The notes under the pieces were generated by a model. That model was not told where the DNA came from, made no database searches, and was given only the letters and a program-made list of their open reading frames with translations. Shown here in pieces: positions 7,889 through 53,570 of a stretch of DNA of 64,000 nt. The translations under genes and the position numbers were made by a program. The stretch comes from Paenibacillus donghaensis (GTDB taxonomy: Bacteria > Bacillota > Bacilli > Paenibacillales > Paenibacillaceae). Positions within the stretch are counted from its first letter, which is position 1. The number at the start of each line of letters is the position of its first letter. The stretch covers positions 1,674,001 to 1,738,000 of the forward strand of contig NZ_CP021780.1 in the NCBI RefSeq assembly GCF_002192415.1. Direction: 5' to 3'.

Positions 7889-7899
7889 TCAATAACAAA

Positions 7900-8095: not shown

Positions 8096-8809
8096 ATGCG
8101 TCAGGTTAAATTATTTTGTTTGCCTTATGGAGGAGGTTCGGCATATTCCTATCTAAAATGGAAAAGTGAACTTGCAGATGTTGTTCAATTATGTCCGGTT
8201 GAGCTTACGGGAAGAGGAAAGCGTTTTTCCGAGCCGTATTACAACAGTATCGAAGAGGCAGTGGATGATGTATACAAGAGCATTAAACCTGATCTTAATC
8301 AAACGCCCTATGCTATTTTCGGACACAGCATGGGGAGTATTATTTTGTATGAACTGTATTTTAAAATTATGGAAATGAACCATAAGGCACCCGTCCATCT
8401 CTTTATATCAGGAAGAAAGGCTCCTGAAATACCAGATTATGAAATCACTTATAATTTGCCGGAATTGGAGTTCACTAATAAAGTGATGCAGTATGAGGGA
8501 ACTCCAAGGGAAATATTTGATAACAAAGAGCTGGCAGACATCTTTATTCCCTTGCTGAGGGCAGATTTCAAAATTGTACAGACCTATCAGTACAAGCCCA
8601 CAGGCAGAAAAATGGATACGAACGTAACAGTGATGTACGGCAAGGATGACATTTATACATATGGTGATACCGGTTCTTGGAAGAAGCATGTCAACGGCAG
8701 CTGTGAATTCCATGTATTCAATGGTGGGCACTTTTTTATACATAATGATAAACATAAGGTGGTTGAAGTTATTAATACAGCTTTGTTGAATAGTTTCTTT
8801 GCTCGCTGA
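8096..8809 (+). CDS. Type II thioesterase (SrfAD/GrsT-like)
   Basis: A 237-residue alpha/beta hydrolase that removes wrong acyl groups from carrier proteins of PKS/NRPS lines. It begins with the family start LFCLPYGGGSAYSYLKW, has the nucleophile elbow GHSMGS with Ser near residue 84, an Asp near 185 in YGKDDIYT, and the catalytic His in NGGHFFIHND near residue 214. Its length is standard. It is the first gene of the biosynthetic operon, 14 bases ahead of the acyl ligase gene, and is preceded by TGGAG before the ATG. The role is proofreading rather than product release, since the large NRPS carries its own terminal thioesterase. Confidence 0.92.
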   Translation: MRQVKLFCLPYGGGSAYSYLKWKSELADVVQLCPVELTGRGKRFSEPYYNSIEEAVDDVYKSIKPDLNQTPYAIFGHSMGSIILYELYFKIMEMNHKAPVHLFISGRKAPEIPDYEITYNLPELEFTNKVMQYEGTPREIFDNKELADIFIPLLRADFKIVQTYQYKPTGRKMDTNVTVMYGKDDIYTYGDTGSWKKHVNGSCEFHVFNGGHFFIHNDKHKVVEVINTALLNSFFAR

Positions 8810-8823
8810 CGAAGGAGGATAAC

Positions 8824-11418
8824 ATGACAAGGTTTCGTACTTTGGTTGAAGCCATCCGGGAAAGAAGCAGTGAAGTCAGCATAGGTATTACGTTTATTGC
8901 CGGAGATGATGAGGAAACGTTCGTTTCGTACAAAGACCTTTATGAGAAGGCAGCTTTAATTCTGGGTGTGCTCCAGGCCAATGGAGTTCAGTCAGGAGAT
9001 GAACTGGTTCTACAGATTGAGGATCAAATCGATTTTGTAACTTTTTTTTGGGCATGTATTCTTGGTAGAATAATTCCCGTTCCGGTTACGATAGGCAATA
9101 ATGATGAACACAGAAATAAAGTTTTTCAGATTATGAAAATATTAAACAACCCCTTTCTGGCAACAAGCAAGCGGCAACTGGCATACTTAGAGAAATATGC
9201 AGAGTCCAACGACTTAAATGGGGAGTTGCATGGAATAAATGCTAAAACCTTGCTTGTGGATCAAATGCAACCGGTTTCCCAAGCGGGGCAGATCGAGCCT
9301 CTGGAAGATTTTGAAATCGTATTCATCCAATTCTCGTCTGGATCAACAGGAGAACCCAAAGGCGTCATACTGACTCACGATAACTTACTTGCGAACATCT
9401 ACGCCTCCATCAAATGTTCAGGAACAAGCAGACAAGACTCTATGCTGACCTGGATGCCCCTAACCCACGATATGGGAATGATCGGTTCCCATATGCTTCC
9501 TTTGGTAGCAGGTATCAACCAATATCTCATACCAACTTCCTTATTTATCAGAAGGCCTACCCTGTGGCTGAAAAAAACTTCTGAGCATCAAGCAACAATC
9601 TTATCATCCCCTAATTTTGGATTTAGGTATTTGTTATCGTTTTACAAGCCTGAAAGCAATTACGACTGGGATCTATCCCATGTCAAGATTATATACAATG
9701 GTGCTGAGCCTATTTCTACTGAATTGTGTCATGAATTTCTGGATCAGATGTCCAGATATGGTCTTAAGGAAACCGTTATTTTTCCCGTTTACGGACTTGC
9801 GGAAGCATCGGTCGCTGTCTCCTTTCCCGTTCCAGGCGAAGAGTTGAAGGAAGTGAATCTCGACCGCCGTAATTTGAATGTTCTTGATATGATCCGAAAT
9901 GTCGATCCCAAGGATGCCGATTGCATCACTTTGGTGGAAGTAGGCTCTCCTGTGGACGACTGTTTACTGCGAATATGCGATACCCAAGATAATGTGCTCA
10001 ATGAAAAAACAGTTGGGGAGATTCAAATTAGCGGAAGAAATGTGACCAGCGGCTATTACAGGAATCAGGAAGCGACGGACCGTATATTGACCGGGGACGG
10101 ATGGTTGAGAACAGGGGATTTAGGATTCTTACAGAATGGAAAACTCGTTATAACCGGAAGATTAAAGGACATTATTTTCATCAATGGGCAGAATTATTAT
10201 CCTTATGATATAGAAAGAATCGTAGAACAGATAGATGGAGCGAAATATGGTGGGGTGGCTGCATGCGGAGTGTTTGATGCAGAGCAGCAGAAGGAAGAAA
10301 TCGTCGTGTTTGTAATTCATAAAAAGAAGCTAGAAGAGTTCCTTGATATGTATGCGGACGTGAAAAAATGGGTTGGTAGACAGCTGGGTGTGGAGGTGAA
10401 AGACGTTATTCCCTTGCGCAGGCTTCCGAAAACCACCAGCGGGAAAATTCAGCGGTATAAGCTCGCAGATGAATATAGCATGGGTCTGTTCAACGATATT
10501 TCACTAGAATTGAAGCAGTTGGCCAATCGGAGTATTGAGCAGGCGCAGGATCATCTTCCGGTTAATGGGATCGAACACAAACTGCTCCAGATATGGTCCT
10601 GTGTGCTGCAAGTTGAAGCTGATCAAATCAGTGTGAATGATAATTTCTTCGAGATTGGAGGGAACTCCACTCTTATGGTTCAGATGATATCCTACATTGA
10701 TGCTGATTATCCTGGGACTATAAATATCACGGACCCATTTGAGACACCAACAATCAAAGGGCTGGCAGAACATATTGATAGCGCTTCCCGAAAGCAGGAG
10801 CCTTCCCAATCCATAACATTGCTGGAGCTGCCCGAAACCTTTTTTGTAGATAACAATGCTTCTTACCTTCAGAGCCCTATTCAAGAATACAGCTTTGTGA
10901 TGGAAGAACAACACTATAGTATGTTGCGGGACATTTCAGCGAATGAAGCTATTGGTGTCCAAGATGTATTAGTGCTGTTGTTTGCCTTTGCGGTTTCACA
11001 AATAGCCGGAGTTCAGTCAGTTCCCCTTCAGGTCCTGCATGATGAGGGAAGAATTTATCCTGTCACAGTTGATTTTAGTCAAACTATGGATTTTTCCCGA
11101 TTACTGCAAGAGGTGCTTCACATCCGAAAGGGTGGTTCCGGCAGCGGCAGGAGCATCCATGCGTTTGCGGATGCCCGGATACTAAAGAGTGAAAGATCAG
11201 TGTTGGCGCTTGTTTATTCGAGAAGCAATCTGAACTCCAATCTGAACTTAATGGAGATTTTCGATATCACAGGCAGGATCGATGAGTACGAGGATACGCT
11301 TACTTTTATTTGTGAGTACAACGCGTTAAGACTGAGCAAGGAAGGCATGGGTAGAGTCGTTAGCCAGTACCAGAAATTAATAGAAACCCTTATTAGCCAG
11401 TATGTACTTAGGAGGTAG
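8824..11418 (+). CDS. Loading acyl-AMP ligase (FAAL / PksJ-type) with ACP and a degenerate C-domain lobe
   Basis: An 864-residue starter protein. Residues about 1-560 form an acyl-AMP ligase: A3 loop FSSGSTGEPKGV near 175, TWMPLTHDMGMIG near 210, VYGLAEAS near 323, TGDLGF near 435 and a catalytic Lys in KTTSGKIQRYK near 545. The sequence style is that of fatty acyl-AMP ligases and the loading ligases of PksJ/BaeJ type. Residues about 575-655 are a carrier protein with phosphopantetheine Ser in EIGGNSTLM (Asn replaces the common Asp). The last about 200 residues look like the C-terminal lobe of a condensation-type domain (IYPVTVDFSQTMDF) without the HHxxxDG lobe. The start is supported by AAGGAGG. 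It should activate a carboxylic acid with ATP and pass it to its ACP for the first KS. The acid may be a fatty acid or a short branched acid. Confidence 0.88.
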   Translation: MTRFRTLVEAIRERSSEVSIGITFIAGDDEETFVSYKDLYEKAALILGVLQANGVQSGDELVLQIEDQIDFVTFFWACILGRIIPVPVTIGNNDEHRNKVFQIMKILNNPFLATSKRQLAYLEKYAESNDLNGELHGINAKTLLVDQMQPVSQAGQIEPLEDFEIVFIQFSSGSTGEPKGVILTHDNLLANIYASIKCSGTSRQDSMLTWMPLTHDMGMIGSHMLPLVAGINQYLIPTSLFIRRPTLWLKKTSEHQATILSSPNFGFRYLLSFYKPESNYDWDLSHVKIIYNGAEPISTELCHEFLDQMSRYGLKETVIFPVYGLAEASVAVSFPVPGEELKEVNLDRRNLNVLDMIRNVDPKDADCITLVEVGSPVDDCLLRICDTQDNVLNEKTVGEIQISGRNVTSGYYRNQEATDRILTGDGWLRTGDLGFLQNGKLVITGRLKDIIFINGQNYYPYDIERIVEQIDGAKYGGVAACGVFDAEQQKEEIVVFVIHKKKLEEFLDMYADVKKWVGRQLGVEVKDVIPLRRLPKTTSGKIQRYKLADEYSMGLFNDISLELKQLANRSIEQAQDHLPVNGIEHKLLQIWSCVLQVEADQISVNDNFFEIGGNSTLMVQMISYIDADYPGTINITDPFETPTIKGLAEHIDSASRKQEPSQSITLLELPETFFVDNNASYLQSPIQEYSFVMEEQHYSMLRDISANEAIGVQDVLVLLFAFAVSQIAGVQSVPLQVLHDEGRIYPVTVDFSQTMDFSRLLQEVLHIRKGGSGSGRSIHAFADARILKSERSVLALVYSRSNLNSNLNLMEIFDITGRIDEYEDTLTFICEYNALRLSKEGMGRVVSQYQKLIETLISQYVLRR

Positions 11419-11422
11419 ACAG

Positions 11423-12712
11423 ATGGCTGTCAGAACCGCTTTTTTATTTCCGGGGCAGGGCTCTCAATACGTCGGAATGGGAAATGCTTTATTTCTTGAA
11501 TCAGCTGTAGCCAGACAAATATTCGAAGAAGCCAATGATGTGCTGGGTTTTGATGTTGCAAAGCTATGCTTTAAGGGGGATTTGACGGAACTGACAGATA
11601 CCTATAACGCTCAGCCAGCAATTCTTACTGTAAGTATGGCAGCTTTCCGGACCTTGATGGCGGAAACACCGATTAAGCCGTTTATACTTGCCGGACACAG
11701 CCTCGGAGAAATTTCGGCTTTGGTTGCCAGTGGCGCAATCCGCTTTCAAGATGGTTTACGCCTTGTAAGAAGAAGAGGTTATCTGATGAGAGAAGCTAGT
11801 ATTTCCGCTCCTGGGTCGATGGCGGCCATAAGCGGTATGCCATTAGAAATGATTGAGAAGAAATGTGCGGAATATTCGAATCATGATCAAATCCTTGTTC
11901 TGTCCAACATCAATTCACCGGATCAGATCGTGATATCGGGAGATACAAGAATGGTGACCAAGGCTTGCGAACTTCTCACTGAAGAAGGAGCATATGCGAC
12001 ACTTTTAAACGTAAGCGCTGCCTTCCACAGTCCGTTGATGAAACAAGCCTCCTGTGAGTTTGCTGCGGAGTTGAACAGAATTCAGTTCAGTGAACTGAAA
12101 TGGCCGGTATTATCCAACGTAACGGCACTCCCTTATAGATCCTATCATGATATTGCGGATTATCTTACAAGGCAGATGGTCAGTACGGTGATGTGGAGCA
12201 AGTCCATGCAGTACCTTAAGTACAATCAAGTGGAAGCAGCCATCGAAATGGAGCCCAGAAACGTGCTGAGAAACTTGATGAAATGGAATGAACCCCAGAT
12301 TAAGACCTATTCCTACAAAGGTGTAGAGAGCATGGATCTTATGGAGGAATTACTTAATGCATGGAAGACAACGGAGCCTGAAGCAACGACTAGTACTCAC
12401 AGCTTAGTGGAGCGCTGTCTGGCAATCGCAATCTGCACAAGAAACCGGAATTGGAGCGAGGGGGAGTACAGATTAGGTGTTGTAGAGCCCTATCGGCAGG
12501 TGAAGCTTATGCAGGACAAGATAGAGAGTGAGAACAGACAGCCTGCTTATGATGAAATGGTTCAGGCCATCCAAATGCTAAAATCCGTTTTTGTAACTAA
12601 AAAAGCACCTATTGACGAGCAAACGGAAAGATTACAGCAATTGTTCAGGGAGTCGGGGACGTCAGCAATGTTCTCCACTGAAGCGATCTTGCATAAAGGG
12701 CTCTTCCAATAA
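11423..12712 (+). CDS. Stand-alone malonyl-CoA:ACP acyltransferase (trans-AT) with C-terminal extension
   Basis: A 429-residue trans-acting acyltransferase that should load malonyl units onto the AT-less PKS modules downstream. It has FLFPGQGSQYVGMG near the start, the catalytic GHSLGE near residue 90, the substrate-pocket segment AAFHSPLM near 200 (the His-Ser pair usual for malonyl-specific ATs) and SNVTALPY near 230. The FabD-like core ends near residue 300. About 130 further residues (from about 305) have no domain I recognise and may serve protein contact. I start it at 11423 because AGGAGG (11410-11415) stands eight bases ahead of this ATG and the FabD start AVRTAFLFPG follows. An upstream in-frame ATG at 11402 overlaps the previous gene. 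No reductase or second AT is present in the cluster. Confidence 0.92.
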   Translation: MAVRTAFLFPGQGSQYVGMGNALFLESAVARQIFEEANDVLGFDVAKLCFKGDLTELTDTYNAQPAILTVSMAAFRTLMAETPIKPFILAGHSLGEISALVASGAIRFQDGLRLVRRRGYLMREASISAPGSMAAISGMPLEMIEKKCAEYSNHDQILVLSNINSPDQIVISGDTRMVTKACELLTEEGAYATLLNVSAAFHSPLMKQASCEFAAELNRIQFSELKWPVLSNVTALPYRSYHDIADYLTRQMVSTVMWSKSMQYLKYNQVEAAIEMEPRNVLRNLMKWNEPQIKTYSYKGVESMDLMEELLNAWKTTEPEATTSTHSLVERCLAIAICTRNRNWSEGEYRLGVVEPYRQVKLMQDKIESENRQPAYDEMVQAIQMLKSVFVTKKAPIDEQTERLQQLFRESGTSAMFSTEAILHKGLFQ

Positions 12713-12731
12713 ACCATAGACGGGTGATGTT

Positions 12732-15700
12732 ATGGGATTTAATCTCTCGGAATTAAGTCTTGTCCAGTCAAATGAAACGCCTCTTATTAATGGGCATAGG
12801 GGGATAGGTGATGAAGACGCTCATAATACGGATATTGCCATTATCGGAATGTCTGTTAATTTCCCCGGAGCCAAGGATTGTGACGCATACTGGAATAATA
12901 TCAAGAACGGCAAAGACCTGATAACAGAATTTCCTGAAACCAGACGCGCGGAGATTGATAAATATTTGTCCGTGAACCCTAATGCTCTGGAGGGATATGA
13001 ATACTTTCAAGCGGCATTTCTTGATGAAGTGGATACATTCGACTACCGCTTTTTCCGGCTTACTCCGGCGGAAGCCAGCCTGATGAGTCCGGTTCAACGT
13101 CTATTTCTTCAGACTGCTTACACAACAATAGAGGATGCAGGTTATGCAGGAAGTAAGATTATTGGCAGCAAAACCGGCGTTTTTGTCGGATATATCGGTG
13201 ATACGGTCGGAAATACATATGAGGATATTTTAGCCAGCAGTAGCGATGCCCTGAATCCAGGCATTTTTACAGGGAATCTGTCATCCATGATTCCCAGCAG
13301 AATCTCGTATTACCTTGATTTGAAAGGCCCCAGTCTGGTTGTTGATACAGCTTGCTCCTCCTCTCTGGTTGCTGTGCATCTGGCATGCCAATCGATCAGG
13401 AATGGAGAATGTGACACGGCTCTTGTTGGTGGAATTAAGCTGTTTCTGGTTCCAGTTAAGAATAAGGTGAAGCTTGGCCTGGATTCTCCGACTTACCGTT
13501 CCAAGGCCTTTGACGACAGCTCCGACGGAATCGGCGTTGGCGAAGGTTCAGCGGCGGTAATGTTGAAGCCGTTGAGTAAGGCGTTAAGGGATCGGGATCA
13601 CATATACGCGGTAATTAAAGGAAGCGCTATAAATCAGGATGGGAACTCCATTGGTATAACCGCTCCTAACGTGGCAGAGCAGGCAAATGTAATTGCTAAG
13701 GCATGGAATAATGCCAGAATCAACCCGGAGACTCTGTCTTATATTGAGGCCCATGGAACAGGGACCAGAATCGGTGACCCCATTGAGATCGAAGGAATTA
13801 AGAAAGCCTTTGAGCGCTTCACAAACAAGAAACAGTTCTGTGCGATTGGTTCAGTGAAATCCAATATAGGACATTTAAACGAGGCAGCCGGTATCGCTGG
13901 ACTTATTAAGCTTGCCCTTTGCTTGAAGCATGGGGAAATACCGCCAACCCTTCACCTCAACCGGCCGAACCGGAGAATCGAGTTTGAAGATTCTCCAGTG
14001 TATGTGCAGGATAAATGGACGAAATGGGACTTCGGAGGAGAACAGAGAAGGGCAGGTATCAGCTCCTTCGGCTTTAGTGGAACGAATTGCCATATGGTGT
14101 TGGAGCAGTCCCCGGAAGTTGAAGCAGGCCCTGAAGCGTACAGAGGGGGACCGAGCGTACTGACTCTATCCTCAAAGTCAAGAGGCTCGTTGGAAAGGCT
14201 GCTTCTCGATTATCGAACATTTTTAAGTGAGAACCCTGCAATCTGTATGAAGAATCTATGTTACACAGCGAACACGGGCAGGGATCATTTTAATTACCGC
14301 TTGGCTATCATTGCCACTGAACTGAAGGAGCTTAAGAATTCCATAGAGAGTTTATGTGCTTCGGGCTTAGACGGATTGCTGCAAGAGAATATATACTTCA
14401 ACCAATTTACAATAGTTAACCGAACGAAGGGTGCACTCAGAGACGGAGACCTTACGGAAGAGCAATTGGAAGGTAAGAACTGCCTGGCCAGGTTTAAGAT
14501 GAAAGAATATGTAAGCAGCGGCAAGGGAAATAAAGGACTTTTCCAAGAAATATGCAGCTTGTATGCAAGCGGTGCAACGATTGATTGGAATCTTCTATAC
14601 GATAAAGAAAAACTTAGAACAGTCAGCCTGCCTACTTATTCCTTTGACAGGGAACGATGCTGGTGTAGCATTGCCGATCAACCCATAGACGGTTCTCAGC
14701 CAGAAAGCGGGAATCCCTTCTTTACGATGGCGTGGGAACCTAATGCGTTGGTGAAGGGCAACGGCACAGCAGTCTCCAAACAAATAATCTTGTTCAAAAA
14801 TACTACCAGCAGTTATGAATCGATCGAAGAACAGCTTCGAGGAACAGGGAATCTTGTCATTTCAGTAACTATTGGCAAGTCCTTTGAGCGGATCAACACC
14901 AGCAGTTATGTAATCGACAACTCGGAAGAAGGTTTTGCACGCTTATTCTGGAATGTCTCTCCTGATCTCCCCGTTCATATCGTCCATTTGTTAGCTGCTG
15001 GGCTTGAAGCAGAAGCTCAAAATCTCAATGAATTGGATCGTAATCTGGAGTTGGGAGTTTATAACGTTTTTTATTTGGCGAAGGCGCTAAAGCATCTGGA
15101 AACGTCAGATCCAATTCGTGTTGATCTTATTGCCGGGAGGGCCGGCAAAGTCGCAGCGCAAGACGATCTGGTTATACCCGAGAACGGAACAATGATAGGA
15201 TTGGCCAAAGTAATCAATCGTGAATTCCCGCAAGTCTCGTGCAGAACTATTGATGTTGACGATACCTTCACTGTGGAGCAGTTGCTTGACGAACTCAGTT
15301 GCGAGAATAATGAAGGGCAGGTTGCTTATCGAAACGGTGTCAGGTATGCAGAATACCTGCAATCTCTTCAGCTTGAAGCCACCACTCATTCGAATGTTGA
15401 GATTAAAGAAAATGGCACGTATCTCATCAGCGGTGGATTAAGCGGGATTGGTTATGAAGTTGCGAAATATTTAACTGCAGCGGCGAAGGTTCATCTCATT
15501 TTAATGAACCGTACATCCATACCGGAACGGGAGAAGTGGGATGAATTAATAGTAAGCAATGCGGATCATAAGCTCACCGGAGGAATCGCTGCAATCCGGA
15601 GTTTGGAGGCTGCAGGTTCCACCGTGGAGTACCTTCGCGCAGATGTTTCCAATTTGCAACATATGGAGCAAGCTATTGATCGTATCAGCGCAAAGTACGG

Positions 15701-21209: not shown

Positions 21210-21210
21210 C

Positions 21211-27246: not shown

Positions 27247-27278
27247 GTTGTCTGTTAAACCAGCAAGGGGGTCTTTAC

Positions 27279-36662: not shown

Positions 36663-36684
36663 TAGGGAGGAGCACGAATACTAG

Positions 36685-45600: not shown

Positions 45601-48600
45601 CTTAACCGTGGAGAACTGACCTCGCTAAAATTCATTGAGAACCCTTTTGAGCCGGGAGAAATGCTATATCGCTCTGGTGATATTGTCAGGCTGATTGCTG
45701 AAGGGGAACTGGAGTACCTGGGAAGAATCGACCATCAGGTGAAGATCAGAGGTTATCGAATTGAGCTGGGGGAAATTGAATCCCGACTTATTCAGCATGA
45801 GGCCATCAGCGAGGTTATACTCCTTCCATGGGAAGATAGTATGAATGGCGATTACTTATGTGCCTATATCGTAAGCGCCTGTGAGCTTTCGGTTGCTGAA
45901 TTAAGAGCGTTTCTGGGGGCTGGTGTACCTGACTACATGATTCCTTCCTATTTCATCCGGATGGAGGAGCTTCCGCTAACGTCTAACGGCAAAGTAGATC
46001 GCAATAAGCTGCCGCAGCCTGTGGGGAATATGTTGTCATCCGGCTCTTATGTTGCTCCTGCTAACGATTCCGAAGCTAAGCTGGCTGAAATTTGGCAGGA
46101 TATTCTGGATATTGAACATGTAGGCGTGACCGATAATTTCTTCGAGCTGGGTGGCCATTCACTGAAGGCAACCATCATCATGTTCAGGATTACACAGGAA
46201 TTCCATGTTCAGGTGCCACTTAGGGAGTTCTTCAACAAGCAGATCGTTCGTGAGCTCTCCATGCTAATCGAAAGCCTGAAAACAAGCAGTTATCGGTCTA
46301 TTCAGCCAGTGGAGCAAAAGGAATATTATCCTATGTCTTCTGCGCAAAAAAGATTGTATATTCTCGATCAAATGGAAGATATTAGGACTAGCTATAACAT
46401 TCCTGCGGCAATGATCATCGAAGGTGAATTGGACAATGACAGGTTTGCAGAAGCCATTCAGGTCTTGATCAAGAGGCATGAAGCGTTCAGAACCGCCTTC
46501 ATTCTGGTCGATAATCAGCCCCGGCAAATAATTGTTCCGTATGAAGATTTCGATATTGTATCGTTTGATTGTGGTGAGCATGATATGAATAAAGCCGTAT
46601 TAAGCTTTATTCAGCCGTTTGATCTAACGAAACCCCCGTTAGTAAGAGTTGGTTTGGCGAAGCTCGCAAGGAACAAACATATAGTTCTTTTTGATATGCA
46701 CCATATTATCTCGGATGGCACATCCCTGGGTATCATCATGTCCGATTTCCTTGCTTCTTACGAGGGCGGTATGTTGTCGGAGCTGAAGGTGCAATACAAG
46801 GATTTTGCAGAATGGCAGAATAACCAAGCGCATTCAGATGGCTTTAAAAAGCAGGAAAAATATTGGTTGCGCAGATTCTCCGATGAGCTGCCTGTTCTCA
46901 GAATGCCGACGGATTTCATCCGGCCTGTCAAGCAAAGCTTTGAGGGGGGCTCCATTTCATTTGATGTTTCTGCAATATTGACAGAGAGGCTGAATGCCTT
47001 GGCAGTAGAGACCGGAGCCACATTATATATGGTGCTTCTCGCAGTGTTTAATGTATTGCTGTCCAAATATTCAGGCCAAGAGGATATTATCGTCGGTTCA
47101 CCGATAGCAGGACGGTCCCATAGTGATCTGTATAATGTTGTGGGTATGTTCGTCAATACCCTTGCCATGAGGAACTATCCGCAAGGTGAGAGGACATTCC
47201 TACAATTCCTTGAGGAAGTAAAGGAGAACTCGCTGCAAGCCTATGAGAATCAAGATTATCAATTCGAAGAGCTGATAGACAATCTGAATTTAGAAAGGGA
47301 TATGAGCAGAAATCCGTTGTTTGATGTAGCTTTTGTATTACAGAATACGGATATGAAGGGACTGAAATCCGCTAGTCTCCAGGCATCCCTGTATAAATTT
47401 GAGAACATAACGGCTAAATTCGATATTTGGTTATGTGCTGTAGAGAACGATAGTAACCTGGAATTTATCATGGAGTATAGCTCTAAACTTTATAAGAGAG
47501 AAACCATAGAAAGAATGTCCAGACGGTTTATTAGTATTCTTCAACAAATTGTTACCGATAGGAACAGTAAGATTAATGAACTTGAGATGGTTACGAATGA
47601 AGAGATGCAGACAGTACTCCATGAGTTTAACAATGATGTTCCGGCCTATATCAAGGAGAGTACGATCCACCGGTTATTCGAAGAGCAGGTAGACCGGACG
47701 CCTGACCGCATTGCCGTAGTATTTGAAGGGAAAAGAGTGAGTTACGGCGAGCTTGACAGACGTGCAAACCGGTACGCCAACTACTTGAACAAAACCCATG
47801 GAATCGGACCAGATTCACTCGTTGGCGTGATGCTTGAGAAGACAGATGAGCTGATTGCCGTCACCCTAGGCATTTTAAAATCCGGAGGGGCGTATATTCC
47901 TATTGATCCGGAAGCACCGGAAGAAAGAATTAAATCCATTATTGAAGATGCAGGGTTAGCTTTGCTGATCTCTAGCAAGAAGAACATAAGGACGTTAAAC
48001 AGGCTGCAGTGGGAAACCGAATGCCTACGTACATTTCTATGCGTTGATTCCACAGAGGTTCATAGTGAGAAGGAAGCGGAGAAAAACGATTTGATGCGTG
48101 AAGAAGTATGGAGGGTTGTTGGGCTAAATGCCAGTAATGATATTGAAGGCGGGGCTTGGACGAACAGTTATACAGGAAACAATCTGAGTGAAATGGAAAT
48201 GGAGGAGTATTCCGACAATATCTATCAGAAGCTTAAGCCGTGTCTGAGGAAGGACACAAGAGTGTTAGAGATTGGATGCGCTTCCGGTTTGAGTATGTAC
48301 AGAATCGCTCCAGAAGTTGGTTTATATTATGGGACCGACTTGTCTCAAGTAATTATCGAGAGAAATAAAGGTCGGGTTGCCGCCACAGGACTGAACAACA
48401 TCAAGCTCTCCTGTCTGCCTGCCCATGATATCAATCAAATCGAAGAACGGGATTTCGATATTATTATCATCAACTCCGTTGTCCAATGTTTTCATGGTCA
48501 TAACTATCTGAGGGATATCATAAACAAATCTATCAAGCTTATGAAACGTTCTGGCATACTTTTTATCGGCGATATCATGGACCAGGATAGTAAAGATGAA

Positions 48601-50994
48601 CTTATTCGATCCATGTTGGAGTTCAAGCGCAGCTACCCAAATAGCAATTACAGGACCAAAACCGATTGGTCAGTGGAGTTGTTCTTATCCAGAGCCTTCT
48701 TTGAAGATCTGCAAACTGACATCATAAGCATCCAGGAGATCAGATTCTCGGATAAGATCCACACGATCAAGAATGAGTTAACCCAATACCGTTATGATGT
48801 TATGATCCTGGTCGATAACAATCCAGCACACGTAAACAGGGGAAGAAGCAAGCACAAAAATCAACATGGATTCAATGATGTTGCTCTATATGATTGCGAA
48901 CGCATTCAAGCCAAGGCAATGCAAAATAATCTGGCCTACGTCATTTACACATCTGGTACAACAGGAAAACCGAAGGGGGCGATGATAGAGCATCAGAATG
49001 TGGTACAGCTTCTAAAGCATGACAACATGCGGTTTAACTTCAATGAAAATGATGTCTGGACCCTGTTCCACTCGTATTGTTTTGATTTTTCCGTGTGGGA
49101 GATGTATGGCGCGCTCTTGTACGGTGGCAAGCTTGTCGTCGTCCCCAAAGCTGTGGCACAGGATACTAAGGAGTTCCTATTGCTTATACAGGAAGAGAAG
49201 GTAACAGTGTTGAACCAGACGCCTTCCGCATTTTATCGATTAATGAATGAGGAAGCAAAGTTGTCTGAGGCGGAGCTGTGTTTGAGATATTTGATCTTCG
49301 GAGGCGAAGCTTTACAGGCCGGCATGTTGAAAAAATGGAAGGAACGTTATCCTCTTACCAAGCTAATTAATATGTATGGCATCACGGAGACAACGGTTCA
49401 TGTTACGTACAAAGAAATCACGGATCAGGAAATTGAATCCGGCCGAAGCAATATTGGAAGACCCTTGCCCACAGTGACTGCTTATGTCATGAATGATGCC
49501 CTGAAGCTTCAACCCGTCGGTATTCCCGGGGAATTATGTGTGGGAGGAACAGGTGTCTCACGGGGGTACTTAAACAGAGCGGAATTAACTTACAGCAAGT
49601 TTATTCAGAATCCGTACAAGCCGGGTGAAAGACTCTATAGGTCTGGAGATATTGTAAGGCTGCTGCCTGACGGTGATTTGGAGTATTTGGGCAGAAAGGA
49701 CCAGCAGGTGAAGATTCGGGGATACCGAATCGAGCGGGGAGAGATCGAGGCGTATCTGATCCAACATGAATCAATCAGCGAGGCCGTGGTAGTCGACCGA
49801 CAAGATTCTAGTGGGGATATCTACTTATGTGCTTACCTGATCTCGGATAAGGAGTTGACTGTATTAGAAATTAGGGAGTTTTTGTCCAAAGAGTTGAACG
49901 ATTACGCTATTCCTTCTTACTTTGTGAGACTGGATACGATTCCGTTAACAGCAAACGGCAAATTGAACAGGAAGGAATTTCCTGATCCCGTAATTAACCT
50001 AAATACAGGTGTTCAATATGTGGAGCCTGCAAGCGAGACGGAAATGGAGCTGGCGGCCATATGGCGAGATGTACTTGAGATTGTAAGTGTAGGCACTAAT
50101 GATAATTTCTTCGAGCTGGGCGGACATTCGTTAAAGGCTGTACAAGTGATATCACTGATCATGGAACGGCTGAGCCTTCAACTGAAAGTAACTGATATAT
50201 TCGCCAACCCAACCCTGAAGGAACTGGCAGATTATGTAGATCATTTAAGATACTACAGCGGAAAGTTGCCTATTGAGAAGTCCATGCTGCTCTTAAATGA
50301 GAAGAAGGATCGGCATATTTTTGCCTTTCCTCCGATTATTGGATATTCCATAGGGTTTCATCGTCTGGCACGAATAATTGACACCCATTCTTTCTATAGC
50401 TTTGATTATATTGAAAATAAAGGAAATTTAGAAATTTATGTGGAATTAATAATGAGTATTCAGCAAGAAGGCCCGTACGTGCTGTTAGGCTACTCAGCCG
50501 GAGGAAATCTGGCATATGAGGTTGCACGTAGACTTGAAGAGAAAGGACAATGCGTATCGGATATCATTCTAATGGATTCTTACATTGAAAAGCATGAGGA
50601 ATTCTCCATGACCCATGGAGTTGTCGATGAGATGGTCTCTAAGTTTCTCTTGGATTACAGTGTTCAGAATAGCAGCAATATCAACATTGATCAGATAGTG
50701 AATGAGGTGCTGAAGCGTTCAGAAGGTTATGCACAATTTTATAACAGCTTAGAGCACGAGGGTGTTGTCCATTCCGAAATCCATGTGGTGAAATCCGACT
50801 CCAGTATCGGAATCGATTTGGAGGGGCAGTGGAACAACTACACCAGCAAGACTGTACAAACTTATCAGGGAACCGGACCGCATGCGGATATGATCTTCGC
50901 CCAATATTCCGATGCCAACGGCCGGTTAATCAAACGGATCTTAAACGAAGCGCTTTTGAGGTCCGGCAAGTTGGAGGAAGCACATGGGAGATAA
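36685..50994 (+). CDS. NRPS: partial C - A(Thr)/MT-T - C-A(Leu)-T - C-A(Thr)-T - C-A(Thr)/MT-T - TE
   Basis: A 4,769-residue terminal NRPS. Residues 1-255 are a condensation-domain C-lobe only. A1 reads DFWNIGMVHK (Thr) and is interrupted between motifs a2 (LKAGGAYVPMDP) and a3 (YTSGTTGKPKG) by a methyltransferase of about 290 residues (VLEIGCASGL near 470). T1 Ser1091. Module 2: C (HHIIADG, His1271), A DAWFLGNVVK (Leu), T Ser2118. Module 3: C, A DFWNIGMVF(K) (Thr-like, Phe where His is usual), T Ser3159. Module 4: C, A DFWNIGMVHK (Thr) again split by an MT (VLEIGCASGL near 3861), T Ser4482. No E domains. The TE (about 4530-4769) has GYSAGG with Ser4604. Adenylation domains 1, 3 and 4 are near copies, and MT-bearing modules 1 and 4 look like a duplication. 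a2-a3 insertions are known mainly for side-chain O- or S-methylation, so O-methyl-Thr is likelier than N-methyl-Thr, but this is inference. Confidence 0.93.
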   Translation: MDKVTRNIVMSSEAYQTERHYWMNKLQGDLVMAGIPADSLCSSIESKGSSSFTREISGGDFERIMKIGNSSELGVYLILLTALKSLFVIYNNHEDVLVGMPVFKADPLESRMNRLLPLRSHLSRNFTLKELLNDVNHVVMEADEHKHFPMDGVAELLAIQTADGLFPEFRTVVLLDGFHDSINACNNSAELVVSFYIGDSSIAVKMEYRIPKLNESKVSAFAEHFFNLLHNWIESPETRLCEIEYLSLEEKNKLLFAWNDTDAEYCGDKTLHQLFEEQADRTPHHIAIQYQNKRVTYKQLDEQANVYANYLLQEHDLTPGTLVGVMLDKSDELIAVTLGILKAGGAYVPMDPEYPEERLKMIIEDAGMHLIISGKRYIKTLNKLQWECNNFKAFLCVDTHNVMQEEENEKNELMGEEVWKYVGLNAKDDIEGGAWTSSYTGGNLSKEDMEEYTNNIECKLKPYLNSTTRVLEIGCASGLSMYPLAPQVGWYYGTDLSEVIIGKNRERVQKEGIGNIKLACIPAHDIDKLEEADFDVVILNSVVQCFHGHNYFKNVISKCLGMLRNQGILFIGDVMDQERKADLLKSLVEFKQAHEDKNYRTKTDWSVELFLSPGFFEDLRADFTEITAIQISDKIHTITNELTAFRYDAIIHVDKSGTSQTLQPKLKLQHGLQELNRYRNDRFHSQVSPNSLAYIIYTSGTTGKPKGAMIEHRNVVRLMSNSRMPFEFNEEDVWTMFHSYSFDFSVWEMYGALLYGGKLIVIPKPIAQDTSGFLTLLKQNKVTVLNQTPSAFYRLIEQDLESGGSGLNLRYVIFGGEALRPGVLSDWQRKYSHTKLINMYGITETTVHATYKEIGLSEIQTNCSNIGKPIPTLKAYVMSDNMRLLPAGIVGELCIGGDGVCRGYLNRPAQTLDKFVDNPYQPGQRLYRSGDLAKLLPNGELEYCGRMDQQVKIRGHRIELSEVEHILHMHEEIKEAVVVAHSDNHQENMLCAYYVSEIPLTVHDLKLYLSTMLPEYAIPSYFVQMDYIPLTYNGKVNKRGLPNPLNNINTGIEYLGATNETEETLIEVWKQVLKVDTIGILDNFFELGGHSLKATILISMIHKVFDVEVPLAAIFKNQTLKELAVFIELSKKSRFAAIEQAEKKDSYELSAAQKRLYVLSQLDQGGVGYNIPVVMTIEGTLDSELLKSCIEGIVGRHEVFRTSFILADGEPVQRIHTDTLVDIQTFSSSEDRVESIIRDFIQPFDLTVAPLLRVGLIEVCEQKYILIFDMHHIIADGTSIGILMRDFVSAYEGSASQSLRIQYKDYSEWQNNWFRSEAFQRQEQYWMQQFLGELPLLNMPVDYPRPSVQSYAGDAVTFGLSKELTQQLNELASESGATVYMILLAAYNILLHKYTGQEDIIVGSPVAGRQHTDVQHMVGMFVNTLAIRSFPRAGQTFKQFLEDVKLTSLDALDNQDYPFEELVDRLNLSRDLSRNPLFDTVFSMLNMDAADVEIEGLTFKPYEFEYKISKFDLTLQAVEAKETGLIEFRLEYNTDLFAREKMDRLAVHLVYIIKQLVKNPDARLRDIELATVEEQQQILSVFNNTGMDYPADHTIHELFMRQVNQTPDNTALVYDNRTMSYKELNDKSNQVAAILRGKGVRTDYIVALIAEPSFEMIIGMLGILKAGGAYLPIDPDYPVERTSYMLQDSDCCLLLGNSHLVKPYENLAAVVCLDDPIIETVDVSDVGLDNAPQDLAYVIYTSGSTGNPKGVMVEHRALVNLCSWHIAYYAVTSTDRSTKYAGFGFDASVWEIFPYLISGSAIYIITKEIRLDVEQLNSFMEEHGITISFLPTPICEQFLRLDNKSLKKLLTGGDYLKYVKKKSYELFNNYGPTENTVVATSFKITEESEKIPVGKPISNCQALILDSCNNLLPIGVSGELCISGTGLARGYVCNAPLTEEKFVPHPFFQGERMYRTGDLARWLPDGNIEFLGRIDRQVKIRGHRIELGEVEAQLLRHPSVIQTAVTDKTDSNGHKVLCAYIVSNEVMTTSELRTFLSGSLPEYEIPSYFITVKEIALTSNGKVNRDVLPEPKEMMDTGTEYIEARDDVEERLKAIWHELLGVETISIKDNFFELGGHSLKATSLVSRIAKEFNVHLPIKEVFSNQTLENLAVAIKEAKRAVFHSIVPAQDKEFYPVSAAQKRIFILSQFNSEDLLYNVPGTLLIEGAVNRERVEHAVKTLVNRHEAFRTSFAVVNGEPVQKVQHEAVIEIRFLKSTEQQVEQLITSFIQPFNLSQAPLLRVGLVRLCHDRHVLVFDMHHIIADGTSMDILVREFLSLYQAQTLPPLRIHYKDYSDWQNSYLASDALRKLRAYWKQMFTDDVPVLNMPTDYPRPAVQSFEGDTIGLELRPNLVAKLSTLTMGTGTTLYMVLLAAYNVILAKYTGQEDIVVGSPIAGRPHADLENIVGMFVNTLALRNYPNNGKTFKQFLMEVKDSSLQAYENQDYPFDELVDMLSVRRDLSRNPLFDVMFAMQSVDVYSTELDGVSMKPFPVNFNVAKFDLTLNVLETNGRIRLTMEYCTKLFKRETVERLLHHYEYILDQVTENASIRLEELELLTLADRNQLLLDCRKPWAWGNGNKTICQLFEEQAARTPDHIALVFENQTMTYRELNEKANALARGLIGHGIHSEDIVAILVERSLDMMISIMGVLKSGGAYLPIDPNYPADRISYTLEDSCAKLILTHKNLHHGLAYPVDVLYVDECETYHWDTTNTHIMGKTENLAYVIYTSGTTGRPKGAMIEDRNVVQLVMENNELFHFGEKDTWTLFHSYSFDFSVWEMYGALLYGGKLVIVPKFTAQDTKEFLDLLIKEKVTVLNQTPSAFYRLMEEELKRTAAELQLRCVIFGGEALKAGLLKEWSDRYSNTKLINMYGITETTVFVTHKEITKEDISSTRNNIGRPLPTYTAYIVDSNLRLQPRGVAGELLVGGKGVGRGYLNRGELTSLKFIENPFEPGEMLYRSGDIVRLIAEGELEYLGRIDHQVKIRGYRIELGEIESRLIQHEAISEVILLPWEDSMNGDYLCAYIVSACELSVAELRAFLGAGVPDYMIPSYFIRMEELPLTSNGKVDRNKLPQPVGNMLSSGSYVAPANDSEAKLAEIWQDILDIEHVGVTDNFFELGGHSLKATIIMFRITQEFHVQVPLREFFNKQIVRELSMLIESLKTSSYRSIQPVEQKEYYPMSSAQKRLYILDQMEDIRTSYNIPAAMIIEGELDNDRFAEAIQVLIKRHEAFRTAFILVDNQPRQIIVPYEDFDIVSFDCGEHDMNKAVLSFIQPFDLTKPPLVRVGLAKLARNKHIVLFDMHHIISDGTSLGIIMSDFLASYEGGMLSELKVQYKDFAEWQNNQAHSDGFKKQEKYWLRRFSDELPVLRMPTDFIRPVKQSFEGGSISFDVSAILTERLNALAVETGATLYMVLLAVFNVLLSKYSGQEDIIVGSPIAGRSHSDLYNVVGMFVNTLAMRNYPQGERTFLQFLEEVKENSLQAYENQDYQFEELIDNLNLERDMSRNPLFDVAFVLQNTDMKGLKSASLQASLYKFENITAKFDIWLCAVENDSNLEFIMEYSSKLYKRETIERMSRRFISILQQIVTDRNSKINELEMVTNEEMQTVLHEFNNDVPAYIKESTIHRLFEEQVDRTPDRIAVVFEGKRVSYGELDRRANRYANYLNKTHGIGPDSLVGVMLEKTDELIAVTLGILKSGGAYIPIDPEAPEERIKSIIEDAGLALLISSKKNIRTLNRLQWETECLRTFLCVDSTEVHSEKEAEKNDLMREEVWRVVGLNASNDIEGGAWTNSYTGNNLSEMEMEEYSDNIYQKLKPCLRKDTRVLEIGCASGLSMYRIAPEVGLYYGTDLSQVIIERNKGRVAATGLNNIKLSCLPAHDINQIEERDFDIIIINSVVQCFHGHNYLRDIINKSIKLMKRSGILFIGDIMDQDSKDELIRSMLEFKRSYPNSNYRTKTDWSVELFLSRAFFEDLQTDIISIQEIRFSDKIHTIKNELTQYRYDVMILVDNNPAHVNRGRSKHKNQHGFNDVALYDCERIQAKAMQNNLAYVIYTSGTTGKPKGAMIEHQNVVQLLKHDNMRFNFNENDVWTLFHSYCFDFSVWEMYGALLYGGKLVVVPKAVAQDTKEFLLLIQEEKVTVLNQTPSAFYRLMNEEAKLSEAELCLRYLIFGGEALQAGMLKKWKERYPLTKLINMYGITETTVHVTYKEITDQEIESGRSNIGRPLPTVTAYVMNDALKLQPVGIPGELCVGGTGVSRGYLNRAELTYSKFIQNPYKPGERLYRSGDIVRLLPDGDLEYLGRKDQQVKIRGYRIERGEIEAYLIQHESISEAVVVDRQDSSGDIYLCAYLISDKELTVLEIREFLSKELNDYAIPSYFVRLDTIPLTANGKLNRKEFPDPVINLNTGVQYVEPASETEMELAAIWRDVLEIVSVGTNDNFFELGGHSLKAVQVISLIMERLSLQLKVTDIFANPTLKELADYVDHLRYYSGKLPIEKSMLLLNEKKDRHIFAFPPIIGYSIGFHRLARIIDTHSFYSFDYIENKGNLEIYVELIMSIQQEGPYVLLGYSAGGNLAYEVARRLEEKGQCVSDIILMDSYIEKHEEFSMTHGVVDEMVSKFLLDYSVQNSSNINIDQIVNEVLKRSEGYAQFYNSLEHEGVVHSEIHVVKSDSSIGIDLEGQWNNYTSKTVQTYQGTGPHADMIFAQYSDANGRLIKRILNEALLRSGKLEEAHGR

Positions 50995-52597
50995 TATCGA
51001 TTGCCTGTTTATCGGACATAACGAGATGAAATTTGAAGAATATGAAAAAATCATTAGAGCTATGAGTGTGAAATCCGGAGCGTATCGTGACCTGAACTTC
51101 AGTTTTATACAGAAAGATGGAAGGTTGTTCAATGCACCTGATTTATTTAACTATTATTATTACGAGAAGGGAGGGAGGAAAGATGACTTTGGCCCATTGA
51201 ACCTGGGCAATTTATTCAGCAACGCGATTGCTTATTTGAGCAGCTACTTGCAGCGAAGAGGTCTAACTACAGATTATGTAAATTCGTTTCAGGTTGACAA
51301 GCAGTTATTGATCGAGAAGCTGAAGAATAATCACATTACAGCCATTGCCATTCCTACGACTCTTTACGTTTCCGGGTTTCCCGTACTTGAAATCATGAAG
51401 CTGATCAAACAATATAATCAGACAGCAAAAGTAATACTGGGAGGTCCGTTTATTGCAAACAATCTGTCGGGCAGCAACGAAACTGCCATCCAGTATATGC
51501 TGAAGTCCATCAATGCTGATTATTACATCAATTCAGCGCAAGGAGAGGAAACCCTATCTAAGGTTGTTGACGCGCTAAAACATAACAAGAATGTGAGCGA
51601 TATCGAGAATGTCTTGTATAAAGACGGCAATGTCTATTCCTCTACATCGTTATCTTTGGAGGACAACAGGCTTGAGGAAAATATGATTAACTGGACCATG
51701 TTTTCCGACAGGCTGGGTAAAAGTGTGAGCGTTCGTACAGCCATATCCTGTCCCTTTTCCTGTTACTTCTGTGAGTATCCCGAAAGAGCGGGGAAATACC
51801 GCTATACAAGCGTGGAGTCGATAGAAAAGGAGCTTAATGCGATCAATGATCTGAAGCGGGTGACAAGTGTCAGTTTTATTGACGATACCTTTAACATACC
51901 GACTAAAAGATTCAAAGACATTCTTCGAATGATGATCAGAAACAAATACCCATTCAAATGGAACTCTTATTTTCGTTGCCAGTTCGCTGACCGGGAAATG
52001 GTAGAACTTATGAAGGAAAGCGGTTGCGAAGGTGTTATTCTGGGTATCGAATCCGGAAGCAATAAAATATTAAAGAATATGAACAAAGCTGCGACAGTGG
52101 AGCAATACAAGCAAGGGATAAGCTTGCTAAATGAATATGGTATCGTTTCAGAAGCTTCTTTTATTATTGGTTTTATCGGAGAAGATCAGGATACGTATCG
52201 TGAAACGGTACAATTTATTGAAGAATGCCGCCCTACGTTCTACCGGCCTCAGGTATGGTATTGTTCGACGCTTGCACCGATATGGGCTAATCGGGATAAG
52301 CATGGAATTAAAGGAGTCGGCTTCGAGTGGACACATCAGACAATGGACTCCAACACAGCATTTCATATGGTGCAGGACATGTTCTTGAACATTAAGAATT
52401 CCTTATGGATTCCCCAGTACAACTTTGATTTCCCGGGTGTGATTGGTCTAATGCAAAGAGGACTTAATCTAAAGCAGATTACCGAGTATATTAACTTGTT
52501 CAACGAAGGAGTTTCAGGAAAGTTGATCAACCCGGATCAAAAGGATATTGGGCCGCATATAATGGACAGGCTGGAGCAGTATTATAGAGAACTCTAG
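50984..52597 (+). CDS. Cobalamin-dependent radical SAM enzyme (PhpK-like methyltransferase family)
   Basis: A 537-residue enzyme. Residues about 1-190 form a cobalamin-binding-type Rossmann domain (VILGGPFIA near 147). Residues about 230-460 form a radical SAM barrel with the cluster motif CPFSCYFC near residue 256 (CxxxCxxC), FIDDTFNIP near 303 and a GIESGSNKILKNMNK segment near 350. This B12-radical-SAM layout resembles the PhpK/TsrM/CysS class, which methylates unreactive carbon or phosphorus centres. Its ATG overlaps the NRPS stop by eleven bases and is preceded by TTGGAGGA, so it is translationally linked to the assembly line and probably tailors its product. Possible targets are a C-H of the peptide or acyl chain, the thiazole, or the methoxy carbon made by the MT domains. 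Which one cannot be told from sequence. Confidence 0.85.
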   Translation: MGDNIDCLFIGHNEMKFEEYEKIIRAMSVKSGAYRDLNFSFIQKDGRLFNAPDLFNYYYYEKGGRKDDFGPLNLGNLFSNAIAYLSSYLQRRGLTTDYVNSFQVDKQLLIEKLKNNHITAIAIPTTLYVSGFPVLEIMKLIKQYNQTAKVILGGPFIANNLSGSNETAIQYMLKSINADYYINSAQGEETLSKVVDALKHNKNVSDIENVLYKDGNVYSSTSLSLEDNRLEENMINWTMFSDRLGKSVSVRTAISCPFSCYFCEYPERAGKYRYTSVESIEKELNAINDLKRVTSVSFIDDTFNIPTKRFKDILRMMIRNKYPFKWNSYFRCQFADREMVELMKESGCEGVILGIESGSNKILKNMNKAATVEQYKQGISLLNEYGIVSEASFIIGFIGEDQDTYRETVQFIEECRPTFYRPQVWYCSTLAPIWANRDKHGIKGVGFEWTHQTMDSNTAFHMVQDMFLNIKNSLWIPQYNFDFPGVIGLMQRGLNLKQITEYINLFNEGVSGKLINPDQKDIGPHIMDRLEQYYREL

Positions 52598-52625: not shown

Positions 52626-53546
52626 ATGCAGAAAGTGATAGACGTCAAAGGCTTGAAGAAAAGCTATGGAGAGCTGGAAGCGGTCAAGGGGGTGGACCTG
52701 GATGTGTATGAAGGGGAATGCTTCGGATTCCTCGGTCCCAACGGTGCGGGCAAAAGCACGACGATCAATATGCTGTGCACCATGCTGAAGCCTTCCGGCG
52801 GCAGCGCGAAGATCGGCGGCTTCGATCTGATGAAGGAGCGGGCTAGTGTGCGCGAAACGATCGGGATTATTTTTCAAGACAATACGCTGGATGAGAAGCT
52901 TACTGCCAAAGAGAATTTAATGCTTCACTGCCGATTCTATAAGGTGCCTGCGCAGGAGCGGATGACCCGGATTGACCGGGTGCTGGAAATGGTTGAACTG
53001 TCGGACCGGAAGAACAGCTTCGTGGGCACGTTCTCGGGCGGGATGAAACGGAGATTGGAGATTGCGCGGGGACTGCTGCACTACCCCAAGGTGCTTTTTC
53101 TGGATGAGCCTACCGTGGGGCTTGATCCGCAGACGCGTGCGCATATTTGGGATTATATACATAAGCTGAGGGAGGAAATTGGGATCACGATCTTTCTTAC
53201 CACGCATTACATGGATGAAGCTGAAATCTGCGATAAAATTGCCATCATTGATGACGGCAGGATTATTGCCCTCGATACACCGGCCGGCTTGAAGGATGGC
53301 GTAGGGGGCGACATTATTGAGATATCTGCAGATAACAACTTGAAAGCGAAGGAAGAGCTGGAGCAGAAATATGGAAGAACGGTGAAGGAACAAGACAGCA
53401 TCCTCATCTTTGAGGTTGAGAAGGGCAATGAATTCATCGCGGAATTCGTGAAGAATGCCGATTTCAGGATCACGAGCATCAATCTTAGAAGACCGACGCT
53501 TAACGATGTTTTTCTGAAACTGACGGGCAAGCAGATCAGAGATTAA
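52626..53546 (+). CDS. ABC transporter ATPase (DrrA-like)
   Basis: A 306-residue cytosolic ATPase of the daunorubicin-resistance type. Walker A GPNGAGKST near residue 38, Q-loop IIFQDNTLDEK near 80, signature FSGGMKRRLEIARG near 138, Walker B VLFLDEPTVGLDP near 158 and an H-loop His in LTTHYMDEAE near 196. The C-terminal about 80 residues are the regulatory tail usual in DrrA proteins. It starts 28 bases after the radical SAM gene with AAGGAGAG as ribosome site and is followed 24 bases later by its permease. Position suggests export of, or self-protection against, the cluster's product. The base composition switches back to GC-rich exactly here, so it may not share the cluster's origin. Confidence 0.92.
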   Translation: MQKVIDVKGLKKSYGELEAVKGVDLDVYEGECFGFLGPNGAGKSTTINMLCTMLKPSGGSAKIGGFDLMKERASVRETIGIIFQDNTLDEKLTAKENLMLHCRFYKVPAQERMTRIDRVLEMVELSDRKNSFVGTFSGGMKRRLEIARGLLHYPKVLFLDEPTVGLDPQTRAHIWDYIHKLREEIGITIFLTTHYMDEAEICDKIAIIDDGRIIALDTPAGLKDGVGGDIIEISADNNLKAKEELEQKYGRTVKEQDSILIFEVEKGNEFIAEFVKNADFRITSINLRRPTLNDVFLKLTGKQIRD

Positions 53547-53570
53547 CTTACTACTAGGAGGCTGAATCTA

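Follow-up and report, generated by a model that had tools for sequence, protein, structure and literature searches.

The window analyzed here, a 64,000-nucleotide stretch of the Paenibacillus donghaensis genome (contig NZ_CP021780.1, positions 1,674,001 to 1,738,000), carries a biosynthetic gene cluster at 8096-52597 that combines polyketide synthase (PKS) and nonribosomal peptide synthetase (NRPS) subunits. We consider it reasonably probable, judging from sequence, that this cluster is a complete assembly line for an N-acylated thiazole hexapeptide and that its subunits are ordered by the docking of a C-terminal F-x-F-COOH tail on an orphan C-lobe, the C-terminal half of a condensation (C) domain, at the start of the following subunit. 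The line is split twice within modules, each time just past a condensation domain. Both splits (PKS2 to NRPS1 and NRPS1 to NRPS2) have the tail on the upstream protein and the lobe on the downstream one. Domains were called with Pfam and NCBIfam models and with hidden Markov models (HMMs) built from the window's own sequences. The genes, domains, codes, orphan lobes, and tails, and the association of the last two, are direct observations on the sequence; binding, function, sites of methylation, and the product are inferred from them. The parts concerned are as follows.

27229..27243, + strand: C-terminal tail of PKS2, GDFAF (F-x-F-COOH)
27279..28064, + strand: orphan C-lobe at the N-terminus of NRPS1; matches Pfam Condensation 185-456 of 456 only; C-lobe HMM 100.8 bits, N-lobe -0.6
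36645..36659, + strand: C-terminal tail of NRPS1, ISFNF (F-x-F-COOH)
36685..37488, + strand: orphan C-lobe at the N-terminus of NRPS2; matches Pfam Condensation 187-456 of 456 only; C-lobe HMM 73.1 bits
10801..11415, + strand: weak C-lobe-like domain (C-lobe HMM) at the C-terminus of the starter protein, a fatty acyl-AMP ligase (FAAL) with an acyl carrier protein (ACP), before a ketosynthase (KS) subunit

An earlier note on this DNA had the domain anatomy of the line right, but the two half condensation domains, the weak lobe-like domain, the tails, and the split-module junctions had gone unnoticed. Docking of the tail on the lobe is proposed as the simplest account of these parts and would set the order PKS2-NRPS1-NRPS2. 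The lobe may also recruit tailoring enzymes, since in relatives PhpK-like radical S-adenosylmethionine (SAM) proteins and a U32-like protein bear the tail and adjoin such lobes. It could also hold the interface between the C and adenylation (A) domains, since the orphan lobes retain a normal C-A linker.

Tails and orphan lobes at subunit junctions

In the fetched clusters, nine subunits terminate in a complete C domain with an NRPS subunit downstream of them. All nine are followed by a subunit that starts with an orphan lobe and none (0/9) by one that starts with a bare A domain; a radical SAM gene intervenes in two of these junctions. One other C-ending subunit, in genome G050, was omitted from the count because no NRPS subunit lies behind it. 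Subunits starting with a full C domain followed one ending in a carrier protein (CP) or an epimerization (E) domain in the four cases that were paired.

F-x-F ends were found in 9 of the 12 genes located at most 200 bases upstream of orphan-lobe genes, compared to 1 of 395 other open reading frames (ORFs) in the same stretches (Fisher's test, 2.8e-15 with rows treated as independent and 1e-10 with near copies collapsed). In G050, the PhpK-like radical SAM gene supplies the sole F-x-F end among the 395. G083 and G085 have radical SAM proteins that end in VEFDF, and the genes for these lie upstream of an orphan lobe. The radical SAM protein of G091 has VEFDF seven residues short of its C-terminus, and those of the window and of G073 are without it. 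The U32-peptidase-like protein of G050 also bears an F-x-F tail.

A model of the 13 orphan lobes was searched in 100 genomes of the genus, some of which had supplied the model, and in 109 genomes across the order. At least 30 loci were found in the genus, of which 29 were read, leaving out the window's own. Five were complete C domains and two had no upstream gene within the stretch. Among the remaining 22 upstream genes, 12 showed an exact F-x-F end, with 7 of 16 at loci not used before. Across the order, 25 of the 30 loci listed were new; one was a complete C domain and one was without an upstream gene. The other 23 upstream genes all encode a complete C domain, and the F-x-F end was exact in 20 of them, the rest ending in FGL, FGL, and VDFF. 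The 23 loci span three families of the order and include at least one near duplicate of a cluster from the first set (G206), and nearly identical tails recur among several of them.

The orphan lobes are also distinct in themselves. In a tree, all 13 orphan N-terminal lobes split from 28 lobes of complete C, E, and heterocyclization (Cy) domains with support of 97/87. In a leave-one-out comparison, the model built from the remaining orphans outscored the complete-C model for all 13, with margins of 41-160 bits. A His is present at one column in 12/13 orphan lobes and in 0/21 of the complete-domain comparison, and the floor-loop stretch measures 28-33 residues in the orphan lobes versus 37-52.

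Another possible explanation is that module fission left orphan lobes and tails behind as passive remnants, the tail being a worn C-A linker with no docking. Keeping the C-A linker could be reason enough to retain the lobe, as the C-terminal subdomain of McyB alone is reported to restrict A-domain specificity (PMC11546977). Also, a truncated C domain (C*) at the start of an NRPS, that of thermoactinoamide ThdA, is described as probably inactive (PMC7253712). However, the orphan lobes cluster and have common deletions and a common His, unlike scattered decay products. The F-x-F motif also stands exactly at the C-terminus of unrelated proteins, namely the PhpK-like radical SAM proteins of G083, G085, and G050 and the U32-like protein. 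We thus regard fission leftovers as an unlikely source of the pattern. It is quite unlikely that the tail docks on the downstream A domain or carrier protein and not on the lobe. Tail and lobe co-occur, and therefore sequence data cannot separate these sites, but the group-specific changes are located in the lobe, and none of the nine C-ending subunits was followed by a bare A-domain start.

Several observations weigh against docking on the lobe. The junction that defines an orphan lobe also tends to carry a tail and, thus, association alone is no proof of contact. The orphan group in the tree is long-branched, and the bootstrap had not settled. Three of the 12 upstream tails in the fetched clusters are not F-x-F (VDL, IRF, and VEFDF plus seven residues), and the C-ending subunit of G091 that precedes a radical SAM gene has no tail. 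In the genus, 10 of the 22 tails were not exact: three FGL, one each of VDF, VEF, FDL, VDL, and NFD, and two acyltransferase (AT) genes without such a tail. Of the 14 subunits with an orphan lobe in the fetched clusters, five lack a C-ending partner upstream; those of G083 and G085 lie behind a radical SAM gene, that of G050 lies behind the U32-like gene, and one each in G092 and G280 has nothing within 200 bases. Finally, many rows are related and hence not independent (G083/G085, G073/G095/G264, G025/G047, G051/G069/G070, and several in the order sample).

We put it at about an even balance whether the pair constitutes a new docking class for NRPS and PKS-NRPS subunits across this order of spore formers. 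In such a class, a five-residue [hydrophobic]-[Asp/Glu]-F-x-F-COOH end would bind, at the start of the next subunit, a dedicated orphan C-lobe of single origin that lacks the loops reaching the N-lobe, and the same code would also bring stand-alone tailoring enzymes, such as PhpK-like B12 radical SAM methyltransferases and U32-type proteins, to that module. If this is true, subunit order and the recruitment of tailoring enzymes could be read from the last five residues. It would also explain modules split with C on one protein and A on the next, and it would provide a very short transplantable tag for assembly-line engineering.

The pairing of tail and lobe was not met in the open-licence papers on NRPS docking that were consulted. 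Beta-hairpin docking domains, which pair with a short linear motif, are small beta-hairpin domains at the N-terminus, whereas the receptor here is about 240 residues long and corresponds to positions 185-456 of Pfam Condensation. The X domains of glycopeptide antibiotic synthetases are whole condensation-like domains that recruit P450s; the orphan lobes would share this platform role but are half domains. As in COM domains and the PaxA/PaxB pair, a C-terminal donor and an N-terminal receptor would order the subunits (PMC11546977, PMC8251938). COM domains span 15-30 residues, and the PaxA tail has 19 residues and turns helical on about 36 residues of PaxB (PMC11546977, PMC8251938), in contrast to the five-residue F-x-F-COOH end and the C-lobe found here. 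The COM signatures given in PMC11546977 (a conserved TPSD that precedes the donor and an acceptor motif L(T/S)P(M/L)QEG) were absent by eye from the window's two tails and orphan-lobe starts. Like the orphan lobes, the C* of ThdA is a truncated condensation domain that precedes an A domain at the N-terminus, but it opens a starter module (PMC7253712), while the lobes here follow a complete C domain and a tail at junctions within the line.

C-terminal lobes similar to the weak one of the FAAL-ACP protein were observed ahead of KS subunits in G083, G085, and G091. Six of the seven C-terminal C-lobe-like domains before KS subunits were significant but weak, and that of G091_75499 was not significant. 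A plasmid search with an orphan lobe returned 164 records. In the three regions inspected, the matched stretches belong to longer reading frames, and the plasmids therefore yielded no named orphan-lobe example. On a Paenibacillus polymyxa plasmid (L115:8922-10514), a 530-codon protein annotated as condensation domain-containing adjoins two short AMP-binding ORFs.

The PhpK-family radical SAM enzyme

The last gene of the cluster encodes a B12-binding radical SAM enzyme that scores 633.0 bits with the P-methyltransferase model TIGR04479 (cut-off 600). A search of 394 family genomes at E <= 1e-60 gave five relatives, all from the same genus as the window, with 49, 49, 50, 51, and 35% identity. 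With TIGR04479 the first four reach 637-663, and they are located in PKS-NRPS or NRPS clusters. The fifth scores 509, and its neighbors, judged by eye, are radical SAM, cysteine synthase-like, and acyl-CoA dehydrogenase-like genes. No amino-acid code was found to be common to all the radical SAM clusters.

The family score would suit a P-methyltransferase and, with it, phosphorus in the product. However, phosphoenolpyruvate (PEP) mutase (TIGR02320) was over cut-off in none of the six genomes with a PhpK-like enzyme (one weak sub-cut-off match in G083), nor in any of 14 controls, a search whose sensitivity is unproven as it included no positive control. Together with the NRPS or PKS-NRPS setting of four of the five relatives, this led us to reject P-methylation, which we regard as extremely improbable. 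The enzyme shares with the PhpK P-methyltransferases a score above the family cut-off, and it differs from them in the lack of a PEP mutase over cut-off, in its PKS-NRPS setting, and in having three relatives with an F-x-F-COOH tail. Besides phosphorus, class B radical SAM methyltransferases also act on unactivated carbon (PMC7277169), and the NRPS-associated PhpK-like branch is for that reason read as C-methyltransferases. The P-methyltransferase name given by TIGR04479 is likely an over-annotation in NRPS clusters. The junction pattern would give the PhpK-like enzymes carrying that name a likely partner module.

A radical SAM scan of the genome contigs gave nine loci with distant radical SAM genes. 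Two other radical SAM genes lie directly upstream of orphan-lobe NRPS genes, L034:8849-10057 (G091, Radical_SAM/UPF0004) with the tail VDL and L127 (G066, another kind) with the tail NFD.

Assembly-line chemistry and predicted product

The cluster consists of eight co-directional genes with intergenic gaps of -17 to +32 bases. The earlier note had correctly described linked genes with gaps of at most 32 bases but counted seven, and the type II thioesterase at 8096-8809 makes eight. Its inventory of a FAAL-ACP, one trans-AT, three PKS modules, six NRPS modules, a thioesterase (TE), and a B12 radical SAM enzyme was recovered in full by HMM at the same positions. In the rows below, KR is ketoreductase, DH dehydratase, PCP peptidyl carrier protein, Ox oxidase, and MT methyltransferase.

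8096..8809, + strand: stand-alone type II (editing) thioesterase heading the row; PF00975 131 bits, GHSMG motif
8824..11418, + strand: FAAL-ACP-weak C-lobe-like domain; PF00501 and PF00550; the top NCBIfam model is fatty acyl-AMP ligase, below cut-off
11402..12712, + strand: discrete trans-acting malonyl transferase (AT); PF00698; FabD-type TIGR00128 287.9 bits, cut-off 260.9
12732..21209, + strand: PKS1, KS-KR-ACP-KS-DH-KR-ACP, no AT found; Pfam/NCBIfam and window-built HMMs
21211..27246, + strand: PKS2, KS-DH-KR-ACP-C; Pfam/NCBIfam and window-built HMMs
27279..36662, + strand: NRPS1, halfC-A(Ser)-PCP-E-Cy-A(Cys)-PCP-Ox-C; Pfam/NCBIfam and window-built HMMs, ten-residue codes
36685..50994, + strand: NRPS2, halfC-A(Thr,MT)-PCP-C-A(Leu)-PCP-C-A(Thr-like)-PCP-C-A(Thr,MT)-PCP-TE; HMMs, ten-residue codes
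50287..50991, + strand: terminal thioesterase domain of NRPS2; PF00975, GYSAG motif
50984..52597, + strand: PhpK-family B12-binding radical SAM methyltransferase; lacks an F-x-F tail in this genome

No AT domain (PF00698) was found among the Pfam matches inside PKS1 and PKS2, and the discrete AT gene at 11402-12712 is present, both as expected of a trans-AT PKS. The FAAL would put a fatty acid onto the ACP as the starter, in agreement with the fatty acyl starter expected earlier. The one trans-AT would then serve the three AT-less PKS modules, which would build a beta-hydroxy and conjugated diene unit. KR1 has the Asp (VTDD) and KR2 and KR3 do not, presumably suggesting opposite alcohol configurations.

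The ten-residue A codes are, in order, DVWHFSLIDK, DLYNLSLIWK, DFWNIGMVHK, DAWFLGNVVK, DFWNIGMVFK, and DFWNIGMVHK, which we take from known code tables to specify Ser, Cys, Thr, Leu, a Thr-like residue, and Thr. Behind the Ser-coded A domain lies an E domain with intact HHLVVDG and EGHGRE motifs, supporting the D-Ser of the earlier note. Its thiazole is matched by the Cy-A(Cys)-PCP-Ox module, in which Cy has DxxxxD (DLLIADAAS), the Cys code is DLYNLSLIWK, and Ox is a Nitroreductase match (2493-2662). Four C domains have HHxxxDG. The C domain of PKS2 reads HHILADR, with Arg replacing the usual Gly.

Domain order and the six codes thus agree with collinear trans-AT PKS-NRPS logic and the residue order read from it. 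The six NRPS modules would add D-Ser, Cys (cyclized and oxidized to thiazole), N-methyl-Thr, Leu, Thr, and N-methyl-Thr, and the TE would release the product. The predicted scaffold is R-CO, then a delta-hydroxy conjugated dienoyl chain, followed by D-Ser, thiazole, MeThr, Leu, Thr, and MeThr. The radical SAM enzyme would place a C-methyl group at an unspecified position.

Methyltransferases inside the Thr adenylation domains

The first and last Thr A domains of NRPS2 are interrupted by an MT.

37912..38754, + strand: MT interrupting the first Thr A domain between A2 and A3; the A-domain PDB alignment splits around the MT; motif map
48082..48924, + strand: MT interrupting the last Thr A domain between A2 and A3; HMM; 60% identity with the first MT across 270 columns

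An MT search of the 394 family genomes gave matches in 44, including the window's own, at E <= 1e-25. Thirteen relatives with an MT between A2 and A3 (a2/a3; 44-54% identity) have A codes for Thr (three), DFWSVGMVHK (three), Leu (four), Asn (one), and others (two). Two of the four Leu codes were off by one letter between readings, and all four read DAWFLGNVVK with the MT cut out. In a tree of 36 MTs, the window's two pair with support of 97/96 within a 12-row set of eight Thr and four Leu rows (97/89), the eight including the window's two and the three DFWSVGMVHK rows counted as Thr-like. Five of the six rows labeled a8/a9 branch separately. The label of the sixth, L071, is doubtful (an open frame of only 446 aa), and this row sits on the a2/a3 side. 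The MT of plasmid pSa001, which we take to be the sandarazol plasmid, is likewise a2/a3.

N-methyl-Thr is likelier than O-methyl-Thr. This follows from the a2/a3 position, from the clade shared with Leu modules, and from the a2/a3 inserts of thalassospiramide synthetases, which N-methylate (PMC11355689, Table 2). N-methylation would be the simplest function for the whole clade since Leu offers only its amine and no side-chain heteroatom. The earlier note expected O-methyl-Thr, and the position, the closest Leu- and Asn-coded relatives, and the thalassospiramide precedent speak for the N-methyl form instead. Two points suit methylation of the Thr side-chain oxygen. Characterized a2/a3 inserts include the side-chain S-methylases TioN and MarQ (PMC8949500; PMC11355689), and the Thr-coded MTs form their own group of eight rows (86/80), so a switch to O-methylation inside that group could have occurred. 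However, the next relatives sit in the four Leu-coded A domains and an Asn-coded one, and the KtzH insert that O-methylates Ser is a8/a9 (PMC11355689), which leaves O-methylation somewhat unlikely. Both N- and O-methyl-Thr have a residue mass of 115.063 and, thus, cannot be told apart by MS/MS residue mass alone. The MT placement is the same as in the interrupted A domains of thalassospiramide TtcC/TtmB, TioN, and MarQ. In contrast, the domains here are Thr-coded, occur in two copies per protein, and have their nearest sequenced kin serving Thr and Leu.

A second a2/a3 MT clade (L073-L085; 11 tree rows, support 100/99) has Cys-type codes (DLYDxSLxWK and one DLYNLSLIWK), and S- or N-methyl-Cys units are possible there. 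Sibling clusters L096-L101 (G073, G095, and G264) consist of a FAAL-ACP, an AT, a KS-CP-C, and a halfC-A(Leu, MT)-CP. Being small, these clusters would probably lend themselves to work on a2/a3 N-methylation and on the docking pair.

Novelty and relatives

There is precedent for trans-AT PKS-NRPS lines, for A domains interrupted at a2/a3, for a truncated C domain in the thermoactinoamide starter NRPS, and for several docking classes. The line here shares with trans-AT PKS-NRPS hybrids the AT-less KS modules, the discrete AT, the mixed NRPS modules, and Cy-A(Cys)-PCP-Ox, but its module order and residue set match no described line that we noticed. As the earlier note had supposed, no thiazole lipopeptide of this order was noticed in literature listings, and a plasmid DNA search with 8096-33000 only gave no match. 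A tblastn search of plasmids and phages found no close relative, with every record below 60% identity and the listed ones at 22-30%. The Ox region has no relative above 35% identity in 100 genus genomes (E <= 1e-15), and the radical SAM gene has none above 51% in the family genomes searched. That the cluster has already been characterized and its product is known is, given these results, distinctly improbable, and an assembly line for a fatty thiazole peptide of this kind is apparently undescribed. The FAAL matched in 128 of 394 family genomes at E <= 1e-120 with a best relative of 54%, so no ortholog was singled out. As a cluster, this adds another orphan hybrid line, whose product can be predicted and tested; the junction pattern could matter more.

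Genomic setting

The genome is a single contig of 8.54 Mb. Spo0A is present and, therefore, the host is an endospore former. In 4-kb windows, the GC content is 42.5-46.5% in the block, 51% at 52-56 kb, and 55-57% outside 8-56 kb, and the low-GC block begins directly behind tRNA-Leu at 7804-7890. From this contrast and the position of the tRNA, 8000-52600 looks horizontally acquired. The 3' end of tRNA-Leu is not repeated elsewhere within the 64-kb window, so a site-specific island is unproven.

Behind the radical SAM gene, by 28 bases, lies a transporter that could possibly serve in export or self-protection.

52626..54398, + strand: ABC transporter ATPase and permease (two genes); PF00005, DrrA1-3_C, ABC2_membrane

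Further on, at 54488-55285, a MerR regulator with a TipAS antibiotic-recognition domain adjoins a second ABC transporter pair and has host-like GC.

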